From NCBI RefSeq assembly GCF_000706765.1, contig NZ_CP006018.1:248001-312000 (forward strand): 64,000 bases of DNA. The letters run 5' to 3'. Below, one piece after another: positions 3,682 through 11,724 of this stretch. This DNA is from Bifidobacterium [indicum] DSM 20214 = LMG 11587 (lineage in GTDB: Bacteria > Actinomycetota > Actinomycetes > Actinomycetales > Bifidobacteriaceae). Position numbers and translations under genes: made by a program. Position 1 is the stretch's first letter, and each line of letters begins with the position of its first letter. The notes beneath the pieces were generated by a model. That model ran no database searches and was not told where the DNA came from. It saw only the letters and a list, made by a program, of their open reading frames with translations.

Positions 3682-3730
3682 GGGCCGCACTCCTGCAATT
3701 CGATTCACCCGAAAGGCAGGAGTGCGGCCC
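3682..3730. terminator. Strong bidirectional terminator-like hairpin
   Basis: GGGCCGCACTCCTGC (3682-3696) pairs perfectly with 3716-3730, giving a 15-bp GC-rich stem with a 19-nt loop. On the plus strand it is followed by GGTGTTTTCC. It lies between the converging reductase gene (ends 3565) and the transporter gene (ends 3769) and probably ends transcription of both. Confidence 0.7.
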
Positions 3731-3768: not shown

Positions 3769-5217
3769 TCAGAGGAGCGTGGCCACCCAAAGCAGGATGG
3801 CTGCCGCAACGAACAGAATGGCGAATATCTTCCCGCCGACCTTCAGCCACTTACCGAAGCTGATCCCGGCCACGGACAGCCCGGCCAGAAGCACGCCGCC
3901 GGTCGGGTTGATGATGTTCATCAGGCCGTTGCCGAACTGGTTGCTCAGCACGATCACGTCACGGTTGATATGGACCAGATCGGCCAGGGGACCCATGACA
4001 GGCATGGTCAAGGCTGCGGAGCCGGAGGATGAGGGGACGAACAGGGTCAGTATCGACTGGACGGCAAGCAGGATGGTGGTGAAGAGACCCTTAGGCAGAT
4101 TACCCAGCAGTCCCACCAGCCAGTTCAGGATGGTATCGATGATCATGCCGTCCTGGAGAATGACCAGGATGCTGCGGGCCAGACCGATGATTACCGCTGC
4201 ATAGACAAAGTCCCCGCATCCGCTTACGAAGCTCTCGCATATCTGATTGAGCGAGAAACGCGCCACAATCCCGATAATGAGGCCCACGGCGAGGAAGAGG
4301 GCGCCGATTTCGGTCATATACCAGCCCAGGGCCAGGATGCCGTATACCATCACGGCCAATCCGAGGACAAAAATGCCGATGATGATCTTGTCGCGAGTGG
4401 TGAAGGTGTCGGTCTTGCCGGTTTCGTCCTTGCCGTTCGCGCCCTCATTTCCGGAAAGCAGTCGGGCGCGCAGACGCTGGTCGCTGTCATAGACGATTGA
4501 GGATTCGGGAGTCTTGCGAACCCGGTAGGCGTACCGCATGGTGAAGGCAACGGCTATCAGGGTGAAGATGGCCCAGCAGACGATACGCCACATCAGCAGG
4601 GGATTCCCGTGCACTTCGCCGATGCCTTGGGCTATCAGCACGTTGAAGGGGTTGATGGTTGAACCGATATACCCGACCTGGCTGGCCAGGAAAAGAGTCA
4701 GTATGGCCGTCATGGAGTCAAACCCCATTGTCAGCATGAACGTGATGAAGATGATGAACAGGGGAATCAGTTCCTCGCTCATGCCGTAGGTTGAGCCGCC
4801 GAGGCTGACAAGGAGCATCATCATCGGGATGACCAGGATGCCCTTGGCTCCCAAAGAGTCGGCCAGTGCCCTGAGACCCCGATCGATGGCACCGGTTTTG
4901 AGGATGATGCCGAAGGCTCCTCCCAGGATGAGCACGAAGGAGATGACCTCCACGGCCTGGATGATTCCGTTGCCGGGTGCTTCCAGGATGGCGGCCAGAC
5001 CCTGACGGTGGTCCAGACCGTCGCTGATCTTGCCGATTTCATGGAAGGTCCCAGGAAGGATGACGGTCCTCTCCGTGCCGTCCACCATCTGTTTTTTGGA
5101 ATCGAACTGGCCGCTTGGAATCAACCAGGTCGATGCTGCGGCCAGAATGACCATGAAGAACAGCAGGGCGTAGCTATGTGGGAAGGTAAATGACTTGCGT
5201 TTCTTGGTTGTGGACAT
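3769..5217 (-). CDS. YfcC/DcuC-superfamily transporter of the Amadori locus
   Basis: A 482-residue protein with about twelve hydrophobic helices. It has the YfcC-type signature: an N-terminal FPHSYALLFFMVILAAASTWLIPSG helix, GGSTYGMSEE in the middle, the GSTINPFNVLIAQGI re-entrant segment, and near the C-terminus VPSSSGSAALTMP and NIINPTGGVLLAGL. The family (PF03606) includes C4-dicarboxylate and basic-amino-acid exchangers. ATG 5217 was taken because homology begins at MSTTKKRKSF; the longer frame runs into the upstream gene. It is the last gene of the minus-strand frl/fra-like cluster, 37 bases after the amidohydrolase gene. A role as the fructosyl-amino-acid importer, or as an amino-acid exchanger, is inferred from context. 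Confidence 0.85.
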   Translation of the reverse strand: MSTTKKRKSFTFPHSYALLFFMVILAAASTWLIPSGQFDSKKQMVDGTERTVILPGTFHEIGKISDGLDHRQGLAAILEAPGNGIIQAVEVISFVLILGGAFGIILKTGAIDRGLRALADSLGAKGILVIPMMMLLVSLGGSTYGMSEELIPLFIIFITFMLTMGFDSMTAILTLFLASQVGYIGSTINPFNVLIAQGIGEVHGNPLLMWRIVCWAIFTLIAVAFTMRYAYRVRKTPESSIVYDSDQRLRARLLSGNEGANGKDETGKTDTFTTRDKIIIGIFVLGLAVMVYGILALGWYMTEIGALFLAVGLIIGIVARFSLNQICESFVSGCGDFVYAAVIIGLARSILVILQDGMIIDTILNWLVGLLGNLPKGLFTTILLAVQSILTLFVPSSSGSAALTMPVMGPLADLVHINRDVIVLSNQFGNGLMNIINPTGGVLLAGLSVAGISFGKWLKVGGKIFAILFVAAAILLWVATLL

Positions 5218-5254
5218 GATTGTCTCATTTCTTGGGGTATACGGGTAATGCGGG

Positions 5255-6760
5255 TCAGGCCTCGTAGGCAGGTTGTCCATCGACGTAGGTGGCTGCCACC
5301 CGGGCCTCGCGCAGGCCCTGCGCGTCGGCATGGACCAGATCCCTGTCGAAGATGGCCATGGTGGCTCTCTGTCCGGGTCGCAGACTCGGGGGTGCACCGG
5401 GCGAATCCGGATCAGGGTCATTCCGGTTGGAGTGGCCATCATTGGTCCAGGCGGACAATACAGCCATTGCCGGGAGGGCGTACTGGGGGAACCACTGCTC
5501 GCCTCCCTTGTCGAATTCCCGCAGACTGGCCCGCAGGATGGATTCGGGAAGGCTCGGCAGGAACAGGGGGCAGTCCGTGCCGCATGTCAGATTCAGCCCA
5601 GGCGTCGTCAGACTGCTGTAATGGAAGAAATCACTGCCGTCATCGTCGGCAATGGTGTTTGGCATGTAGGCATCCTGGGCGGATGGGTTCAACCCCAATA
5701 TCTGCGGATATAACTCGGCTGTGATGCCTGCCTGGGCCATTACGCCGGCTGCCCGATCATTGATCATCTCCAAGTCGCTGATGGAGTGGTGCAATCCCGG
5801 CGCGGCCGCAGAGGACAGTATCCGAGCGGATTCCTCTATGGCCCTGTCGCCCTCGGCGGTCATGCAACAGGAAAACCCGCTGCCTGCGATGTCTTCGACG
5901 CGATGTTCCAGTTCTCGGTAATCAACTTGTGGGGTGGGCTCACCGGAGGCATAGCGACCGTGAATATCCGCGGTTCCGTCAGCGACGACCCCGTCGACCA
6001 TAAGCTTGACTCCGCGTAGCCTGGTCTTGGAACCCAGCGGTTGTGTGGCGATCTGCTTCAGCCTTGCTCCGGTTACCTGCTCCCTTACGGGCTCTATGTA
6101 GAGATCGGCCTTCAGGCACTTATCGGCCAGCCAGCCATGCACGCCTGTGCCGTCGAAAACGATGTCCTTGCAGGAAACCACTCCTCTTTCGAGGAGCAAT
6201 TGCTCGAATCGTCTCCATGAAGCCCGAACCAGCTCCCGGTCACCGGTCATCTCCTTGATCAGCAGGGCCCGGTCCTCTGCCCCAAGCTGGTCCTCGGAGA
6301 ATCCATACCGCCGAACCGCCGCTGTATTCATCCAGTAACGGCTGCGTAGTGAGTCGATGGCCACTATCGGGGTCTGGTCGCTGATGTCATCCAGACTGTC
6401 CCGCTCGGGGTCTTGGCCCCATAGCTGCCGATTCCATCCATGGGCGTATATGGGTCTTGTCGGATTCTCTTTGTGCTCCTTGGCCAAGAGAAGTGCGGCC
6501 TCCTCTTCGGAATCCGCGGATGACAGATCCAGGCCGGCGTTTGCCGCCATCCATCCGGAGAAGAAAACATGGTTGTCGTGAAGGCCCGGCATGACCAGGC
6601 ACTCGTCATATTCGAGCACCTTGCAATCGGGTCCAGGATCTTCGTGATTCCAGTCGCGACCAACCTTGGTGATGGTCGATCCTTCAAACTCCACAAACCC
6701 CTTGAAGAGTTGCGGGGAAATCCCGTCAAAGATATGACGGGACCTTACAACAGTCCTCAT
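5255..6760 (-). CDS. YtcJ-like amidohydrolase-family protein with altered metal site
   Basis: 501 residues with the amidohydrolase-3 (YtcJ-like) layout: an N-terminal beta-sandwich ending in VMPGLHDNHVFF (residues 57-67), a TIM barrel, and a C-terminal return to the sandwich (SLRPGQRATMAIFDRDL). The barrel Lys (LRGVKLMVDG), a later His pair (LHHSISD) and the final Asp (TCGTDCPL) are present. The usual HxH is H64-x-F66, and the usual His of the HAxGDxA strand is Thr301 (MTAEGDRA), so two expected metal ligands are missing. It lies between the GntR regulator and the transporter. By analogy to FraE asparaginase in the Salmonella fra operon it could process the amino-acid half of an Amadori compound, but that is inference. 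Confidence 0.8.
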   Translation of the reverse strand: MRTVVRSRHIFDGISPQLFKGFVEFEGSTITKVGRDWNHEDPGPDCKVLEYDECLVMPGLHDNHVFFSGWMAANAGLDLSSADSEEEAALLLAKEHKENPTRPIYAHGWNRQLWGQDPERDSLDDISDQTPIVAIDSLRSRYWMNTAAVRRYGFSEDQLGAEDRALLIKEMTGDRELVRASWRRFEQLLLERGVVSCKDIVFDGTGVHGWLADKCLKADLYIEPVREQVTGARLKQIATQPLGSKTRLRGVKLMVDGVVADGTADIHGRYASGEPTPQVDYRELEHRVEDIAGSGFSCCMTAEGDRAIEESARILSSAAAPGLHHSISDLEMINDRAAGVMAQAGITAELYPQILGLNPSAQDAYMPNTIADDDGSDFFHYSSLTTPGLNLTCGTDCPLFLPSLPESILRASLREFDKGGEQWFPQYALPAMAVLSAWTNDGHSNRNDPDPDSPGAPPSLRPGQRATMAIFDRDLVHADAQGLREARVAATYVDGQPAYEA

Positions 6761-6859
6761 TGTCTGTCCTTATCGTCAGGACTTGGGGAGTCCTTTGGGC
6801 GCACTTGCCCTTATGAGATGGCAAGAGGATGCGCGTTCCGGGTTCAGCCGACCACCTTG

Positions 6860-7594
6860 TTAGAGGCTGAAGGTATAGAACTCCCCAAGATAAAACTGAT
6901 GACCAACATGAACCGGTCGGTCATCCTGATCGCAGATAAGTGTATGAACCTCAAAGCAGGGAGTGCCTATGACCACTTTCATCTCCTTGGCCAGCCGGGC
7001 ATCGGCCAAGGTCATACCAAGCCTTGTCGTCTTGGGATTGATGGGCCGGATTCCGTGCTTCCTCTCAAGCAGGTCATAGAGGGACCCTGACAGATCCTCG
7101 TGCATGAGGAAGGCGAACCTATCGGCAGGGAAGTAGTTGTTCTCTTCCATGACCGGTTGGTTGTCGGCCATCCGCAACCGCTTCAGATAGACCACATCCT
7201 CGGACGGCTGGTCGCCAAGTTGCTCGGTAATCCACTGTTCGGCATGGATCAGACGGCATTCGAGCACCTTGCTTGATGGCTTGTAGCCGGCCTTGGTCAG
7301 GCTCTCTGTAAATCCCATGACGTATTCGACTCTCCGGTCGATTTTGTGGGTTCTGACGAAGGTGCCCTTCCCCTGCTTCTTGAGAAGATAACCATCGTCC
7401 ACCAGTTCCTCAATGGCACGACGAACGGTGATACGGGATACGCCGAATTGTTCGCACAACTGGGGCTCAGTAGGGATCTTCTCACCGGGGGCCAATTGGC
7501 CGGACCGAATTTCGGAGAGCAGGAGCGCCTTGATCTGAGCGTACTTCGGTATCTGCGTATCGCCCTTGAGCATCAGGTTCTCCCTATCGGTCAT
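6860..7594 (-). CDS. GntR/HutC-family regulator with UTRA domain (FrlR/FraR-like)
   Basis: 244 residues. Residues 15-80 form the GntR winged helix (KYAQIKALLLSEIRSGQL, then EQFGVSRITVRRAIEELVDDG and the wing KKQGKGTFV). Residues about 95-240 form a UTRA effector domain with the family's typical arrangement (RLRMADNQPVMEENNYFP, then a C-terminal VGHQFYLGEFYTF). HutC-type regulators bind a sugar-phosphate or amino-acid-derived effector. It sits in the middle of the deglycase/kinase/transporter locus, so it is the likely local repressor. An imperfect palindrome lies directly upstream of its ATG and a perfect one at the head of the operon. Confidence 0.9.
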   Translation of the reverse strand: MTDRENLMLKGDTQIPKYAQIKALLLSEIRSGQLAPGEKIPTEPQLCEQFGVSRITVRRAIEELVDDGYLLKKQGKGTFVRTHKIDRRVEYVMGFTESLTKAGYKPSSKVLECRLIHAEQWITEQLGDQPSEDVVYLKRLRMADNQPVMEENNYFPADRFAFLMHEDLSGSLYDLLERKHGIRPINPKTTRLGMTLADARLAKEMKVVIGTPCFEVHTLICDQDDRPVHVGHQFYLGEFYTFSL

Positions 7595-7611
7595 GTAACA
7601 CAGTATGCTAC
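7595..7611. promoter_or_regulatory. Possible autoregulatory operator before the GntR gene
   Basis: GTAACACAGTATGCTAC is an imperfect 17-bp palindrome (6 of 8 pairs match) that abuts the start codon of the GntR gene. HutC-type regulators often bind sites of this length. The 133-base gap after frlD also allows a separate promoter here. Confidence 0.3.
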
Positions 7612-7727
7612 CTCATCGAGGCTGACATACCGCTCTTACAAGGTTCGGTTGATCCTTGCTGCCCGGGTTCATATCTATATCCGATTACATCCCGATCCGA
7701 ACTGCCTGGACCTGGATGGTGATATGG

Positions 7728-8573
7728 CTACCTGATGGGTGCGCCATATCCGAAAGAGCCATTCAACTGCACCGCCTCTGCTGCAAAGTCCTGGCCTGCG
7801 ACCAGGCTCTCGTCCAAACCGCGCCCTTGCACAACGTGATTCAGCAGGAAGGCGGTCAGGAACGAGTCTCCGGCCGCCATGGTGTCAACGGCTTCCACGA
7901 CATGGGGTGCCAGTTCATGGAAGTTCTGGCCGTCATAGACCACCGTGGACTGGGAACCTCGTGTGGCGATCAGGACCCTGTTGGGCTCCGTGAAGAGGTG
8001 CTTGAGCAACACCTCCACCTGATTGGTTTCCATCCCACTGACCGAGAAGAAGCCATACTGCACGTACCCGATTGCGGCATCAACCATGGCGTTGTCGAAC
8101 TCGTCGGAGAAGTCATAGGAGATCGGAATGCCCAGTCTGCTGACCTGGGGCAACAGATGATTGGCGTTTCCCCATACTCCCATGTGGATGAGGCCGAACC
8201 CCCGCAGGTAATCCAGATCGCCCTCGTCCAGTTGCAGGGGCTCCTGTCCCGCGATGCCGCCTTCATTGCTTCCAATGAAAACGCGGTCGCCATCGATGAT
8301 GTTGACCTTGGCACAGCCGTTCTCGCCGTGGCGTACCACGCTGTGACTGCGGTCTATGCCCAGGTCGTCAATGCTGGATTCGACCAGCTGGGCCTGACGG
8401 TCATCGCCGAATACCCCCATGAATGCCGCCTCATACCCCAGCTTCTTGGCGAATGCCGCGAAATTCAGGGCGTTGCCACCGGGATACATGACGTTCTTGT
8501 TGACGTACTGATCAACAACCTGGTCTCCCAGGCCGATGACCTTTGTGTCCTCGTGAGGAATATGGCCCGGCAT
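7728..8573 (-). CDS. frlD: Fructoselysine/fructose-amino-acid 6-kinase (FrlD/FraD-like, PfkB family)
   Basis: 281 residues of the PfkB/ribokinase fold. TKVIGLGDQVVDQY opens the chain, NVMYPGGNALNFAAFAKKLGY is the sugar-binding GGN region, MGVFGDD follows, and DTMAAGDSFLTAFL carries the catalytic Asp. Similarity to E. coli FrlD as I remember it is clear, including DRVF, HMGVWG and the late DFSDEFDN segment. The first Gly of the usual GAGD anion hole is Ala here. It would phosphorylate C6 of the fructosyl amino acid. The ATG at 8573 lies one base after the frlB stop (TGATATG), so translation is coupled to frlB; upstream parts of the frame lie inside frlB and were excluded. Confidence 0.82.
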   Translation of the reverse strand: MPGHIPHEDTKVIGLGDQVVDQYVNKNVMYPGGNALNFAAFAKKLGYEAAFMGVFGDDRQAQLVESSIDDLGIDRSHSVVRHGENGCAKVNIIDGDRVFIGSNEGGIAGQEPLQLDEGDLDYLRGFGLIHMGVWGNANHLLPQVSRLGIPISYDFSDEFDNAMVDAAIGYVQYGFFSVSGMETNQVEVLLKHLFTEPNRVLIATRGSQSTVVYDGQNFHELAPHVVEAVDTMAAGDSFLTAFLLNHVVQGRGLDESLVAGQDFAAEAVQLNGSFGYGAPIR

Positions 8574-8574
8574 A

Positions 8575-9546
8575 TCAGTACTCCACCTTGCCCATATACC
8601 TCCGCACGTCCAGGTCATGGTTGTGGACCTTGGACAGGGCATAGCGGTACTTGCTGAGCACGCTGTAGAAGAGCACGGGGTTGAAGTACTCGCTGACCGA
8701 GTCGTCAATCATGTCCAGCCCGAGTTCCTTTGCGTCGACGACCTCGATCTTCTTGGCATACCGCTTGAGGAACTTCAGCACGCGCTCGTCCAACTCACGG
8801 GTACGTCCAAGACCCATCGCCAGGATGAAGGGGGTGTTTTCGTCGGTGATTTCCAGCGGGCCGTGGAAGAACTCGCCGGTGTGCACGGCCGTTGCATCCA
8901 GCCACTGCATCTCCATCAAGGAGCAAATCGAGAACCCGTATGCATGGCCGTAGGATGCTCCGGAGGCCATCACGTAGAACATTTCCTCGTCCTTGTAGGC
9001 GTCGGCGAAGGCCTTGGCCCTGGGCTCGACCTGCTTTTCCGCGGATGCCACGATGGTATCGATCAGCTTCATGCCTTCCATAAAGGTGTTGTAGTGATCG
9101 TAACCTTCCAATTCGTTTACCATGCCGACGGTCAGTTCCAGCATGATTGCCATGGGGTTGTTGTGGACGCGGGTTTCATCGCCCCATTCGTAGAGGAAGC
9201 TATAGTCCGAAACGGCGAGCAGGTCGGCCTTGTCGTTGTATGTGAGTCCGACCGTCTGTGCCCCGGCTGCTTTCGCGATCCTGGCGGCCTCGACCGTCTC
9301 GGGTGTATTGCCGCCGTGGGAGCAAGCGATCACGACGGAGTTCTTGCCGAGGCGCTTGGGGGTGGCGTGGACGAATTCGTTGGCTGTGTACCACCCGCTG
9401 GTAATGGTTGTGGACTCGCTGCGGATGAAATAGTCCGACACGTACATGTCGACCAGTGAACCGCCGCAGGCCACAAAATAGACCTCGGTGATTTTGCCCT
9501 TGTTGTGCTGGACCAGACGCTTGGCCACATCGGTAATATCCTGCAT
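8575..9546 (-). CDS. frlB: Fructosyl-amino-acid 6-phosphate deglycase (FrlB/FraB-like SIS protein)
   Basis: 323 residues with a SIS sugar-isomerase fold. KITEVYFVACGGSLVDMY is the first phosphosugar loop, VIACSHGGNTPETVEAA the second, and GEFFHGPLEI is the active-site segment shared with E. coli FrlB. The C-terminus DVRRYMGKVEY also matches the FrlB tail (RRYYGG.VEY as recalled). It would split fructoselysine- or fructose-asparagine-6-phosphate into glucose-6-phosphate and the amino acid. AAGGAGG lies 5 bases before ATG 9546 and fixes the start; an in-frame ATG further upstream lacks this. It is the first gene of the operon. Confidence 0.85.
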   Translation of the reverse strand: MQDITDVAKRLVQHNKGKITEVYFVACGGSLVDMYVSDYFIRSESTTITSGWYTANEFVHATPKRLGKNSVVIACSHGGNTPETVEAARIAKAAGAQTVGLTYNDKADLLAVSDYSFLYEWGDETRVHNNPMAIMLELTVGMVNELEGYDHYNTFMEGMKLIDTIVASAEKQVEPRAKAFADAYKDEEMFYVMASGASYGHAYGFSICSLMEMQWLDATAVHTGEFFHGPLEITDENTPFILAMGLGRTRELDERVLKFLKRYAKKIEVVDAKELGLDMIDDSVSEYFNPVLFYSVLSKYRYALSKVHNHDLDVRRYMGKVEY

Positions 9547-9567
9547 GATAACCTCCTTGTTCATCAC

Positions 9568-9587
9568 ATAACGTTATATAACGTTAT
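9568..9587. promoter_or_regulatory. Perfect 20-bp palindrome: candidate operator of the frl/fra-like operon
   Basis: ATAACGTTATATAACGTTAT is identical to its own reverse complement. It lies directly downstream of the predicted -10 of the frlB promoter and upstream of the frlB ribosome site, where a bound repressor would block transcription. The GntR regulator of the locus is the natural candidate. I saw no second copy in the neighbouring gaps. Confidence 0.65.
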
Positions 9588-9593
9588 GGTGCG

Positions 9594-9622
9594 AGTATAA
9601 CGAGTATGACTCGGGTTGTCCA
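9594..9622 (-). promoter_or_regulatory. Promoter of the frlB-led operon
   Basis: On the minus strand TGGACA (9617-9622) and TATACT (9594-9599) are separated by exactly 17 bases, a good housekeeping sigma factor match. The perfect palindrome begins 6 bases further downstream, where the start of transcription is expected. Confidence 0.7.
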
Positions 9623-9724
9623 CTTGGGTGTCGTCGGCGCGGAGGAGTGTGCGTATGACCGCCATCTATGCTGTGGTTAGCGTCGGTGTGGGCAATCGTA
9701 GCGCTCCCGGCTCTGGGCCTTGCC

Positions 9725-9753
9725 TTGACAACGAGATCGGTTTCTCCAATAAT
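9725..9753 (+). promoter_or_regulatory. Promoter of the marR-MFS pair
   Basis: TTGACA (9725-9730), a 17-base spacer and AATAAT (9748-9753) form a near-consensus promoter 30 bases before the marR start codon. A short inverted repeat, TAGC-AA-GCTA (about 9755-9764), lies just downstream and may be a MarR site. Confidence 0.6.
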
Positions 9754-9783
9754 GTAGCAAGCTATACTTTTGAAGGGCGGGAA

Positions 9784-10239
9784 ATGCAACCGGAATTGTC
9801 TGAGCATCGACCGGAGGGGCTGGTCAAGATGGCCAATACCTTGTTGGAAAAGCAAATGAATGAATCTGTGCGGGGCATCTTCCCCGAGTTGACCGGCCCT
9901 CAGTTCGTCATTGTCTATTACCTGTATGAGCATGATGGCCTGGAAGTGACTCAAAAAGCGGTGTCGGACAGATTCCGATTGAGTCATCCCACGGTCCGGG
10001 GAATCGTCAAACGGCTGGTCAAAGCAGGATGGCTTATTGCGGAACCACAGGCCGATGACAGGCGTCAGATGGTTCTGATCCTCACAGACCGAGCACGGGC
10101 GGATTTGATTTCCCACCGAACCGAGGTCCGGCATGCACTGCAGGCCACGGGGGAGTTGGCCTTGAGTGGATTCAGTAATCAGGAAAGCAGACAGTTAGTC
10201 AATTACTTGGAACGAATCATTGGGAACCTGGAATCCTGA
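9784..10239 (+). CDS. MarR-family transcriptional regulator
   Basis: 151 residues with the MarR winged helix: LTGPQFVIVYYLYEHDGLEVTQKAVSDRF, then LSHPTVRGIVKRLVKAGWL (recognition helix) and the DDRRQMVLILTDRARA wing. Helices at both ends provide the dimer interface. Start ATG 9784 follows GAAGGGCGGG and fits the family's usual length; the longer frame begins with TTG and adds unlike sequence. It lies 66 bases before a 14-helix drug exporter gene on the same strand, and such pairs usually have the regulator repressing both until a toxic ligand binds. Confidence 0.88.
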   Translation: MQPELSEHRPEGLVKMANTLLEKQMNESVRGIFPELTGPQFVIVYYLYEHDGLEVTQKAVSDRFRLSHPTVRGIVKRLVKAGWLIAEPQADDRRQMVLILTDRARADLISHRTEVRHALQATGELALSGFSNQESRQLVNYLERIIGNLES

Positions 10240-10305
10240 GCGGCCTCACTGAATCAGGCTGGAGAGGTATTCGGATTGAGTCCCGTTGGGGATGGAGGAT
10301 GTGAT

Positions 10306-11724
10306 ATGGGCAAGGTTGATAGCAAAGGCGGATCTGAGGGTAATCGCTCCGTGATGATGGGCACGCTCCTGGCTGGGGCCTTCATTGCCTTGATGGCGGA
10401 GACCTTCCTCAACAACGCGCTTCCGACCATTATGGCGGATTTCCGTGTTTCCCAATCCACCGCTCAGTGGCTGAGCACCTCTTATCTCCTTGTAGTGGGA
10501 CTAATGATCCCCGTATCAGCCTGGGTTTTCTCGAACTTTCAGTCTAAGCATGCCTTCATTGTGATGATGGCGACTTTTCTAATGGGCTCTTTGGTCTGCA
10601 CCTTTTCCGGTGGACATTTTGCTCTGCTATTGACGGGTAGGATCATTCAGGCCGTTGCCGCTGGATCACTGATGCCTTTCATTCAGAACGTGGTCTTGCT
10701 GCTTTTCCCGCCAGAGAAACGCGGTGTGGCCCTGGGTGTGGTGGGGCTGGTTGTGGCTTTGGGACCTACGGTGGGCCCCACGCTTTCTGGGTTTGTTTTG
10801 GAGCACTGGTCCTGGCGGGCTCTGTTCATCCTGCTTGCCATTCTGAGTGCCGCTATCTTGGTGATGTCTTTCTTCCTAGTCTACACGGTCAACGACCGGA
10901 CGAGGACCCATCTGGACGTGGCGTCCGTGATTTACTCCTGCCTGGGTTTCGGGCTTCTTCTTTATGCCCTGTCCGCCATTGGGGACAGGGGCGGGGCATC
11001 GGTTCTTGATTTGGGATTGCTCTTGGCTGGCCTGATGGTGGTGGTCTTGTTCTGCTGGCGTCAGCTGCATCTGGAATCTCCGCTGGTGAATTTGCGGGTC
11101 TTTGCGAACGCCACTTTCAATCTGACCAGTCTGCTGAGCACCCTGAGCAACATTGCCATGGTCGGGGTGGAGCTGGTTCTTCCTCTTTATTTGCAGAACA
11201 CGCGAGGGTCAAGCGCGCTTGTCTCGGGCCTGGTCATGCTGCCGGGAGCTGTCGTCATGGGCATATTCAACCCGCTTTCCGGGATGATCTATCAAAGGAT
11301 TGGGGCAAGGAGAATCTCCCTTTTGGGGTATACGGTGCTGCTTGCTGGCACCTTGCCGATGATATGGTTCGGAACCACTACCAGCCTTATCGTGGTTGCC
11401 GCTTGTTATGCCCTACGCTTGGCGGGTGTCGCGTTGGTCATGATGACCACCTTTACCGAGGGCATCAACGCTCTTCCTCCGGAACTTGCTGCCCACGGCA
11501 ATGCGGCCGCCTCAACTGTCAGACAGGTCGGGGGCTCGCTGGGCACTGCCGCAGCCATGATGATTGTCACAATCGGCGCACAGAGCGGACGCCATGGCGG
11601 AGCCTTGTCGGCTCAGGCTCTCGATCGGGGCTACCGATGGGCCTTCCTCTTCCTGGCTTTCATAGCTGTAGTCGGTCTAGGTGCTTCGTTCTTCCTCAAA
11701 TCGCATAATTCTGAGACCAGGTAG
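10306..11724 (+). CDS. DHA2-type (EmrB/QacA) multidrug MFS exporter
   Basis: 472 residues with about fourteen hydrophobic helices. Family motifs are present: FLNNALPTIMADF near the first helix, LLVVGLMIPVSAWV, and antiporter motif C as ALGPTVGPTLSGFVLEHWSWRALF. Motif C marks drug:H+ antiporters. GGAGGA 6 bases upstream selects ATG 10306. It is co-directional with marR and probably exports an amphipathic toxic compound across the membrane using the proton gradient. The substrate is not predictable. Confidence 0.88.
   Translation: MGKVDSKGGSEGNRSVMMGTLLAGAFIALMAETFLNNALPTIMADFRVSQSTAQWLSTSYLLVVGLMIPVSAWVFSNFQSKHAFIVMMATFLMGSLVCTFSGGHFALLLTGRIIQAVAAGSLMPFIQNVVLLLFPPEKRGVALGVVGLVVALGPTVGPTLSGFVLEHWSWRALFILLAILSAAILVMSFFLVYTVNDRTRTHLDVASVIYSCLGFGLLLYALSAIGDRGGASVLDLGLLLAGLMVVVLFCWRQLHLESPLVNLRVFANATFNLTSLLSTLSNIAMVGVELVLPLYLQNTRGSSALVSGLVMLPGAVVMGIFNPLSGMIYQRIGARRISLLGYTVLLAGTLPMIWFGTTTSLIVVAACYALRLAGVALVMMTTFTEGINALPPELAAHGNAAASTVRQVGGSLGTAAAMMIVTIGAQSGRHGGALSAQALDRGYRWAFLFLAFIAVVGLGASFFLKSHNSETR

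Follow-up and report, generated by a model that had tools for sequence, protein, structure and literature searches.

A predicted Amadori-compound operon in Bifidobacterium and its amidohydrolase-fold protein lacking three canonical metal ligands

Introduction

The systems closest to the locus described here, five genes in a 64,000-nucleotide stretch of the Bifidobacterium [indicum] DSM 20214 = LMG 11587 genome (NZ_CP006018.1, positions 248,001 to 312,000; hereafter the window, to which positions refer unless a locus is named), are the fra operon of Salmonella (fraR, fraBDAE), for fructose-asparagine, and the frl operons of Bacillus subtilis (frlBONMD-frlP) and Escherichia coli (frlABCD-frlR). 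The Bifidobacterium locus has a SIS deglycase, a PfkB-type kinase, a GntR regulator, a Dcu-type carrier, and one extra enzyme in common with fra. In Salmonella, the carrier is the DcuA-family FraA and the extra enzyme is a periplasmic asparaginase, as described in the accessible parts of two reports (PMC12755824, PMC4072780), whereas the locus studied here has a DcuC/YfcC-family carrier and an amidohydrolase-fold protein that has lost metal ligands. Asparaginase models gave no match in a scan limited to the five operon proteins.

The B. subtilis system has the same FrlB/FrlD pair and a GntR-type regulator, FrlR. In the part of the report available (PMC12632257), it is described with an ABC importer and a convergent regulator gene and no amidohydrolase is named, while the Bifidobacterium locus encodes a YfcC-type carrier. 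Homologues of the E. coli kinase, deglycase, and FrlR are present at 27–33% identity, but none of the five window proteins matches the FrlA carrier or the FrlC epimerase in blastp.

We consider it quite likely that this gene set is an operon for the catabolism of fructosamines (Amadori compounds). The operon is real and its composition is not new; it is notable chiefly because the protein that carries the name amidohydrolase shows a conserved loss of metal ligands.

Organization of the operon

The five genes are intact and co-oriented on the minus strand, spanning 3769–9546, with starts and frames verified. The features of the locus are as follows:

8575–9546, minus strand, FrlB/FraB-type SIS deglycase of 323 aa, with ATG at 9546 preceded by AAGGAGG; Pfam SIS, PDB 9otj/3eua
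7728–8573, minus strand, FrlD-like PfkB kinase of 281 aa; Pfam PfkB, top NCBIfam model fructoselysine 6-kinase
6860–7594, minus strand, GntR/UTRA (HutC-type) regulator, probable repressor; Pfam GntR and UTRA, 33% identity to E. coli FrlR
5255–6760, minus strand, amidohydrolase-fold protein of 501 aa; Pfam Amidohydro_3, without three canonical metal ligands
3769–5217, minus strand, DcuC/YfcC-family carrier of 482 aa; Pfam DcuC, 34% identity to E. coli YfcC
9571–9584, no strand assigned, operator-like palindrome ACGTTATATAACGT, 22 bp including flanks
9594–9622, minus strand, sigma-70-like promoter TGGACA-17-TATACT, 10/12 in a consensus scan
3682–3730, minus strand, strong hairpin after yfcC with a 15-bp outer stem, a possible transcript end

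The family assignments exceed the Pfam cut-offs in each case (in bits, score/cut-off: SIS 49.4/25, PfkB 96.3/25.8, UTRA 106.1/23.8, GntR 76.9/27, Amidohydro_3 78.5/29.7, and DcuC 349.6/23.1). The intergenic gaps, from frlB to yfcC, are 1, 133, 99, and 37 bp, and a single transcript for the five genes is plausible. The hairpin 3' of yfcC has a z-score of −5.9 within the 131-nt stretch that was folded. The gene set is more than a chance arrangement, since the same families recur in the same order and on one strand in 19 of 45 loci fetched by the deglycase alone. The preliminary description of this DNA had recognized a locus of deglycase, kinase, and GntR regulator, which is borne out, and had given its span as 3769–9622; the gene content of that span is right, but 9622 is the upstream edge of the promoter-like site and not the end of a gene.

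The deglycase and the kinase

Against the PDB, the SIS protein scores 300 bits with 9otj ('SIS domain protein'), 295 with 3eua, and 289 with 3fkj. The PDB title of 3eua is 'putative fructose-aminoacid-6-phosphate deglycase', and we take this entry to be B. subtilis FrlB. The alignments cover residues 14–324 (9otj) and 11–324 (3eua), making this a full-length SIS match to deglycases. Identity over the stretches printed is 47% to 9otj, 46% to 3eua, and 44% to 3fkj, compared with 27% to E. coli FrlB. Judging from residue numbering, 9otj and 9otu are probably Salmonella FraB, because 9otu has an alanine in place of the glutamate of the MEMQW motif, as expected of FraB E214A. That variant is catalytically inactive according to the accessible text of PMC12755824. 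The glutamate equivalent to FraB E214 is retained in the window deglycase and in all eight other sequences printed; 9otu has the alanine.

In the deglycase trees, the clade of the window protein stands apart from the 9otj and 3fkj pair and from B. subtilis FrlB, and the characterized enzymes lie on long branches. The branch of E. coli FrlB was very long in the first tree (7.3 changes per column), and the later tree was built without it and without four distant rows of the earlier one. As for the placement relative to the FrlB/FrlD clades, which the preliminary description had set as a test, the comparison made for the deglycase places it near, and not inside, the characterized enzymes.

The top NCBIfam model for the kinase is FrlD (fructoselysine 6-kinase) at 196 bits, and identity to E. 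coli FrlD is 30%. A Domibacillus locus (L050, 7011–9750) has two divergent FrlD-like kinase genes with 39% and 31% identity to E. coli FrlD.

Pathways for amino sugars that use SIS-type enzymes draw on the amidohydrolase, SIS, sugar kinase, and GntR/UTRA families. The same broad families could thus have been read as an amino-sugar operon made of a NagA-like deacetylase, a NagB-II-like glucosamine-6-phosphate deaminase, an N-acetylglucosamine kinase, and NagR, and the deglycase does have a weak match to NagB_SO3506 (37 of 430 bits). However, the deglycase-like PDB chains score 289–300 bits and glucosamine-6-phosphate deaminase chains about 30, the kinase gives 196 bits with the FrlD model and 55 with the next one, and the putative deacetylase is an Amidohydro_3 protein with no NCBIfam match and with metal ligands missing. 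The NagA/NagB-II/NagK assignment was rejected on these model and PDB scores, and we regard an amino-sugar operon as very improbable.

The regulator and a conserved operator-like palindrome

A perfect palindrome, CATAACGTTATATAACGTTATG, lies ahead of the operon, and its 14-bp core, ACGTTATATAACGT, is located 24 bp ahead of the deglycase start, just downstream of the promoter-like TGGACA-17-TATACT. The scan for sigma-70-like promoters is uninformative by itself, as it finds four sites in the region where 3.2 are expected by chance. With up to two mismatches allowed, the core has a single occurrence in the genome of 1,734,546 bp, and it occurs once in the window at up to three mismatches, compared with 0.36 expected by chance.

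All 28 five-gene loci examined have the same core in the 120 bp ahead of frlB, with no mismatch in 21, one in six, and two in one; these loci, two of which have a split gene, are also the sequences from which the core was derived. Among 15 loci with other gene sets, three have the palindrome (L089 and L050 exactly, L065 with one mismatch) and 12 lack it (4–7 mismatches); 12 further loci from the deglycase fetch were left out of this comparison. L050 has the exact core, with an FrlC homologue (26% identity) and, by eye, ABC-carrier-like genes in place of the amidohydrolase and YfcC, which suggests the exchange of modules behind one regulator. In the 294 bp upstream of E. coli frlA, the best site has three mismatches and is not claimed as an operator.

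Two further elements were observed upstream of frlB. In a Bifidobacterium metagenome-assembled genome (L033, upstream of 7998), the core lies inside a 50-bp palindrome with 25-bp arms and at most one mismatch. Also, of the 18 Bacillales copies (L035–L050, L074, and L075), 11 have TGAAAGCGnTTATA, which resembles the CcpA box consensus, no more than 150 bp upstream of frlB, and L169 has it as well.

The amidohydrolase-fold protein

The fold and the Pfam score of the fourth protein place it in Amidohydro_3, and no NCBIfam model matched it. Its AlphaFold model has a mean predicted local distance difference test score of 81.7 and a predicted template modeling score of 0.83. The nearest structures by fold comparison and profile search are the Pyrococcus metal-dependent hydrolases 3igh and 3icj, at 17% identity.

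In this superfamily, the metal ligands are an HxH motif, a lysine, two histidines, and an aspartate. The ligand positions were compared between 27 operon proteins and 30 relatives from elsewhere, the latter obtained from genome searches. Left out of the operon set were same-genome duplicates, L046 (split), L174 (interrupted), and 134 plasmid records out of 139; the comparison set omits L132 (a duplicate) and L144 and L153 (internal stops). His64, Lys252, and Asp396 are retained in all 57 proteins. The second histidine of HxH is phenylalanine (Phe66) in 27/27 operon proteins, the strand-5 histidine (position 301) is threonine in 25 and asparagine in two, and the strand-6 histidine (position 329) is aspartate in 27/27, while histidine occupies each of these positions in 30/30 of the others. 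The residue preceding the strand-6 position is serine (Ser328) in all operon proteins, and Glu303 is present in every operon protein and in none of the 30 relatives. The pocket residues Asp62, His64, Lys252, Glu303, Asp305, Ser328, Asp329, and Asp396 are invariant in the 27. The window protein, with H64-x-F66, K252, T301, D329, and D396, therefore does not have the canonical metal set. A profile alignment to 3icj had suggested that the strand-6 histidine is retained; this was dropped, as bridging relatives show His-Ser-Ile-Glu-His against His-Ser-Ile-Ser-Asp.

A branch supported at 100/100 separates the 27 operon proteins from the others. The canonical Amidohydro_3 proteins, mostly from Bacilli and presumably AepA/YtcJ-like, resemble them in fold and in most sequence motifs, but differ in keeping the HxH and the strand-5 and strand-6 histidines (30/30), which the operon proteins have lost (27/27). 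None of the 30 has a deglycase or kinase homologue within its own 3.4–4.6-kb locus, and two of the 30, L136 and L131, have a DcuC homologue alongside. Wider surroundings were covered for 10 of the 30 (L131, L130, L136–L140, L142, L156, and L159). L131, which has all canonical ligands, is the protein at 3883–5616 of the Eudoraea adriatica locus L056, where a canonical amidohydrolase, an acetyltransferase-like gene, a DcuC homologue, a deglycase, and a kinase follow on one strand (3883–9784), separated by at most about 150 bp. In the related L057, several kilobases separate the amidohydrolase from the frl genes, and L052, L054, and L058 show no amidohydrolase. In seven stretches around canonical relatives (L161 and L163–L168), the amidohydrolase has a weakly FrlA-like gene beside it or nearby, and L163 has a second amidohydrolase copy followed by a DcuC-type carrier. 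These arrangements fit an ancestral enzyme-plus-carrier module. In L163 (10265–13340), the canonical HxH amidohydrolase is followed directly by the DcuC-type carrier, and the 18-kb stretch has no frlB or frlD match.

Since three ligand positions are changed, classical metal-centred hydrolysis is unlikely. The preliminary description had the amidohydrolase stand in for the fra asparaginase, but with three canonical ligands lost, an amide-hydrolase role is not to be assumed. Within the same pathway, the protein might still be a true hydrolase, catalysing deamidation or the cleavage of a glycated dipeptide or lactam at a rebuilt single-metal site of His64, carboxylated Lys252, Asp329, and Asp396. 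Aspartate can bind metal, and His64, Lys252, Asp396, and the new Asp329 are present in 27/27. The fifth gene of the fra operon encodes a deamidating enzyme, a canonical relative lies upstream of the frl cluster in Eudoraea, and FrlA-like genes accompany canonical relatives in the seven stretches mentioned above. On the other hand, the strand-5 histidine, the strand-6 histidine, and the second HxH histidine are gone in all 27 proteins, and residues 303 and 328 are changed too. Such a hydrolase, which is compatible with the Amadori pathway, is a credible if somewhat doubtful candidate. It appears rather unlikely that the protein represents a new enzyme class of the superfamily without the canonical metal centre, acting on the Amadori keto-sugar in place of FrlC; here, Lys252, freed from metal bridging, would work together with Glu303, Asp329, and Asp396 to isomerize, epimerize, or open the imported keto-sugar before the kinase acts.

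In three species pairs, the ratio of non-synonymous to synonymous substitution rates (dN/dS) of the amidohydrolase gene is 0.10, 0.12, and 0.18, compared with 0.004–0.09 for its neighbours; an Enterococcus pair was left out as saturated. Between the two genomes of the species itself, the protein differs at 9/501 residues (dN/dS 0.25, from few changes), and the other four proteins differ at 0–2 residues. These ratios indicate a gene under purifying selection that evolves faster than its neighbours, and because of this selection the protein is judged to be probably functional, although probably not as a classical HxH-type metallohydrolase. The loss of metal ligands, the dN/dS above that of the neighbours in each species pair, and the position next to the YfcC-type carrier in each locus read would also suit a non-catalytic partner in the same pathway, such as a chaperone, a substrate sensor, or a carrier-associated protein. 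We find this unlikely, as strictly conserved pocket residues suit an active site better than a scaffold.

The carrier and the possible substrate

The preliminary description held that the usual transporter had been replaced and that the carrier pointed to adducts of lysine or arginine. Salmonella FraA is itself a C4-dicarboxylate, DcuA-family transporter according to the accessible text of PMC4072780 and PMC12755824, so that a replacement of the usual transporter is not supported. The link to basic amino acids was based on the NCBI YfcC label, and the carrier scores 361 bits against the 500-bit cut-off of that model. Because it falls below this cut-off and FraA is described as Dcu-type, the carrier gives no pointer towards basic amino acids. 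By identity, the deglycase is nearer to 9otj and 3eua than to the E. coli fructoselysine enzyme, and lysine or arginine adducts are not supported. No solved structure matched the carrier family profile.

In the portions of PMC12632257 available, B. subtilis FrlB and FrlD are reported to prefer alpha-glycated amino acids. On account of this preference, substrates glycated at the alpha-amino group (fructosyl-alpha-amino acids) would be at least as likely as fructoselysine.

Proposed pathway

The operon is most likely one for Amadori compounds. This assignment draws on the deglycase and kinase matches, the retained MEMQW glutamate, the recurring gene order, and the palindrome, which is shared across phyla and unique in its own genome. 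It also draws on the 27 operon amidohydrolases forming one group with shared ligand changes, and on their dN/dS of 0.10–0.18. The combination of kinase, deglycase, and GntR regulator that had led the preliminary description to Amadori compounds is thus supported, with a conserved operator-like palindrome added.

In the proposed pathway, the YfcC-type carrier would import an amino acid in glycated form, or a derivative of such a compound. The amidohydrolase-fold protein, whose gene adjoins that of the carrier in each operon read, would then act on the imported compound in the cytoplasm, ahead of the kinase. Its chemistry could rely on one altered metal site, or be an isomerization without metal, either of acid/base type or lysine-based. 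The kinase would phosphorylate at C6 and the deglycase would perform the deglycation. By analogy with reports on FrlR, the GntR/UTRA protein would bind ACGTTATATAACGT, the conserved site just downstream of the −10-like box, and repress transcription until released by the phosphorylated substrate.

Several points weigh against this assignment. The deglycase scores 110 bits against the 430-bit cut-off of NF008481, the equivalog model of E. coli FrlB, and the kinase scores 196 bits against the 247-bit cut-off of NF007321, the FrlD equivalog model. No characterized enzyme appears to be a close orthologue of the deglycase clade, and in this clade activity is predicted from sequence for every protein; the role proposed for the amidohydrolase-fold protein is likewise a prediction from sequence and context. 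Ligand loss is not universal among amidohydrolases near frl genes, as the Eudoraea locus demonstrates. Finally, an eighth Bifidobacteriaceae genome (G052) holds the deglycase, the kinase, and the regulator only.

The assignment extends predicted Amadori-compound use to some bifidobacteria. Knowing the reaction of the amidohydrolase-fold protein would show which glycated compounds are used by these bacteria. Wherever its gene is annotated in the plasmid records read, this conserved protein is called an amidohydrolase, a name that its active site does not fit.

Distribution and transfer

Within its own genus group, the deglycase is found only in its own species (2 of 27 genomes). The other matches in the group are weak, with 20–24% identity and mostly in GlmS-looking frames of about 630–680 codons, apart from one short match at 38%. 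In the Bifidobacteriaceae, the deglycase is present in 8/189 genomes (E ≤ 1e-40) and the amidohydrolase in 7/189 (E ≤ 1e-30). The search for the five-gene order across bifidobacteria that the preliminary description had proposed finds all five genes in order in seven of the 189, the present genome included.

The 19 loci with five genes in the same order on one strand, out of the 45 fetched from named genomes, comprise four from Bifidobacterium, which are also among the seven family genomes, and 15 from Paenibacillaceae and Bacillaceae. Two of the 19 have a split gene (yfcC in L037, the amidohydrolase in L046). With the window amidohydrolase as query, the other 26 loci, some of them short stretches, gave no match; in L056 and L057, clustering nonetheless reveals Amidohydro_3-like proteins. 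The Bacilli genomes G200 and G458 have the full order too, and together with G189 (P. ottowii, the search centre) they are the top three of 22 matching genomes among 398 searched.

Plasmids add a further set of hosts. A plasmid search with the amidohydrolase returned 139 records, 136 of them from Enterococcus, and the surroundings were covered for five. The same genes in the same order are carried by a plasmid of Enterococcus faecium and by one of E. raffinosus; this cluster, unlike that of Bifidobacterium, is plasmid-borne, and its palindrome is one mismatch off. In E. faecium (L170, 538–11882), the operon is flanked by two IS1216-family transposase genes. In Klebsiella pneumoniae and Citrobacter freundii, the five genes are reordered with the regulator last. 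The amidohydrolase match of the Klebsiella locus L174 is in two pieces, with no gene annotated under it. Both Klebsiella records have pyrBI and argF as neighbours, from which these copies are probably chromosomal. No megablast match to the Klebsiella cluster was found in E. coli genomes. The carriers of the five loci from the plasmid collection are 53–63% identical to the window carrier, and that of Citrobacter is annotated as NhaC family.

In the amidohydrolase tree as in the deglycase tree, the Enterococcus-like set is joined to Bifidobacterium (support 100/100 and 100/99, respectively), as fits an operon that moved between these lines as a whole. The deglycase of Klebsiella and Citrobacter falls with enterobacterial loci that have a different gene set (100/96), and their amidohydrolase is the first branch among the 27, with weak support (90/60), suggesting that modules were exchanged there. 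Five changes are needed to account for the five-gene label on the deglycase tree. One transferable gene set and one conserved operator-like site thus span Actinomycetota, Bacillota, and Pseudomonadota, Enterococcus plasmids included, and the palindrome and the five genes together provide a clean signature for further cases.

The gene composition, taken as new in the preliminary description, recurs in other bifidobacteria, Bacillales, Enterococcus plasmids, and Klebsiella and Citrobacter, and public records already carry names for its parts ('fructoselysine 6-kinase', 'YfcC family protein', 'amidohydrolase family protein', and 'fructosamine deglycase'). Among the papers listed, with most subscription papers out of reach, no description of the five-gene operon was found. 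An 'frl operon' is mentioned for Paenibacillus polymyxa group A, with genes not named in the text available (PMC11271205), and it may be the present operon, given L035 (P. ottowii) and L037 (P. terrae). According to the accessible parts of the respective reports, GfrE/GfrF of E. faecium belong to a different route (PMC12735817) and fructoselysine use by K. pneumoniae lineages is a prediction only (PMC12700438).

Genes adjoining the operon

A gene pair for a MarR-type regulator and an MFS exporter (9796–11724, plus strand) adjoins the operon and is divergent from it. Similar DNA is found in 13 of 27 genus genomes, including the two of the species itself and one match of only 73 bp, and in the other relatives read, the pair stands without the five genes alongside. 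A single empty insertion site was not found in the sister genomes read, where the flanks are apart or beside other genes. The second genome of the same species (L090, 10105–12617) has about 2.3 kb extra between frlB and the MarR gene, with an open reading frame of 392 aa.

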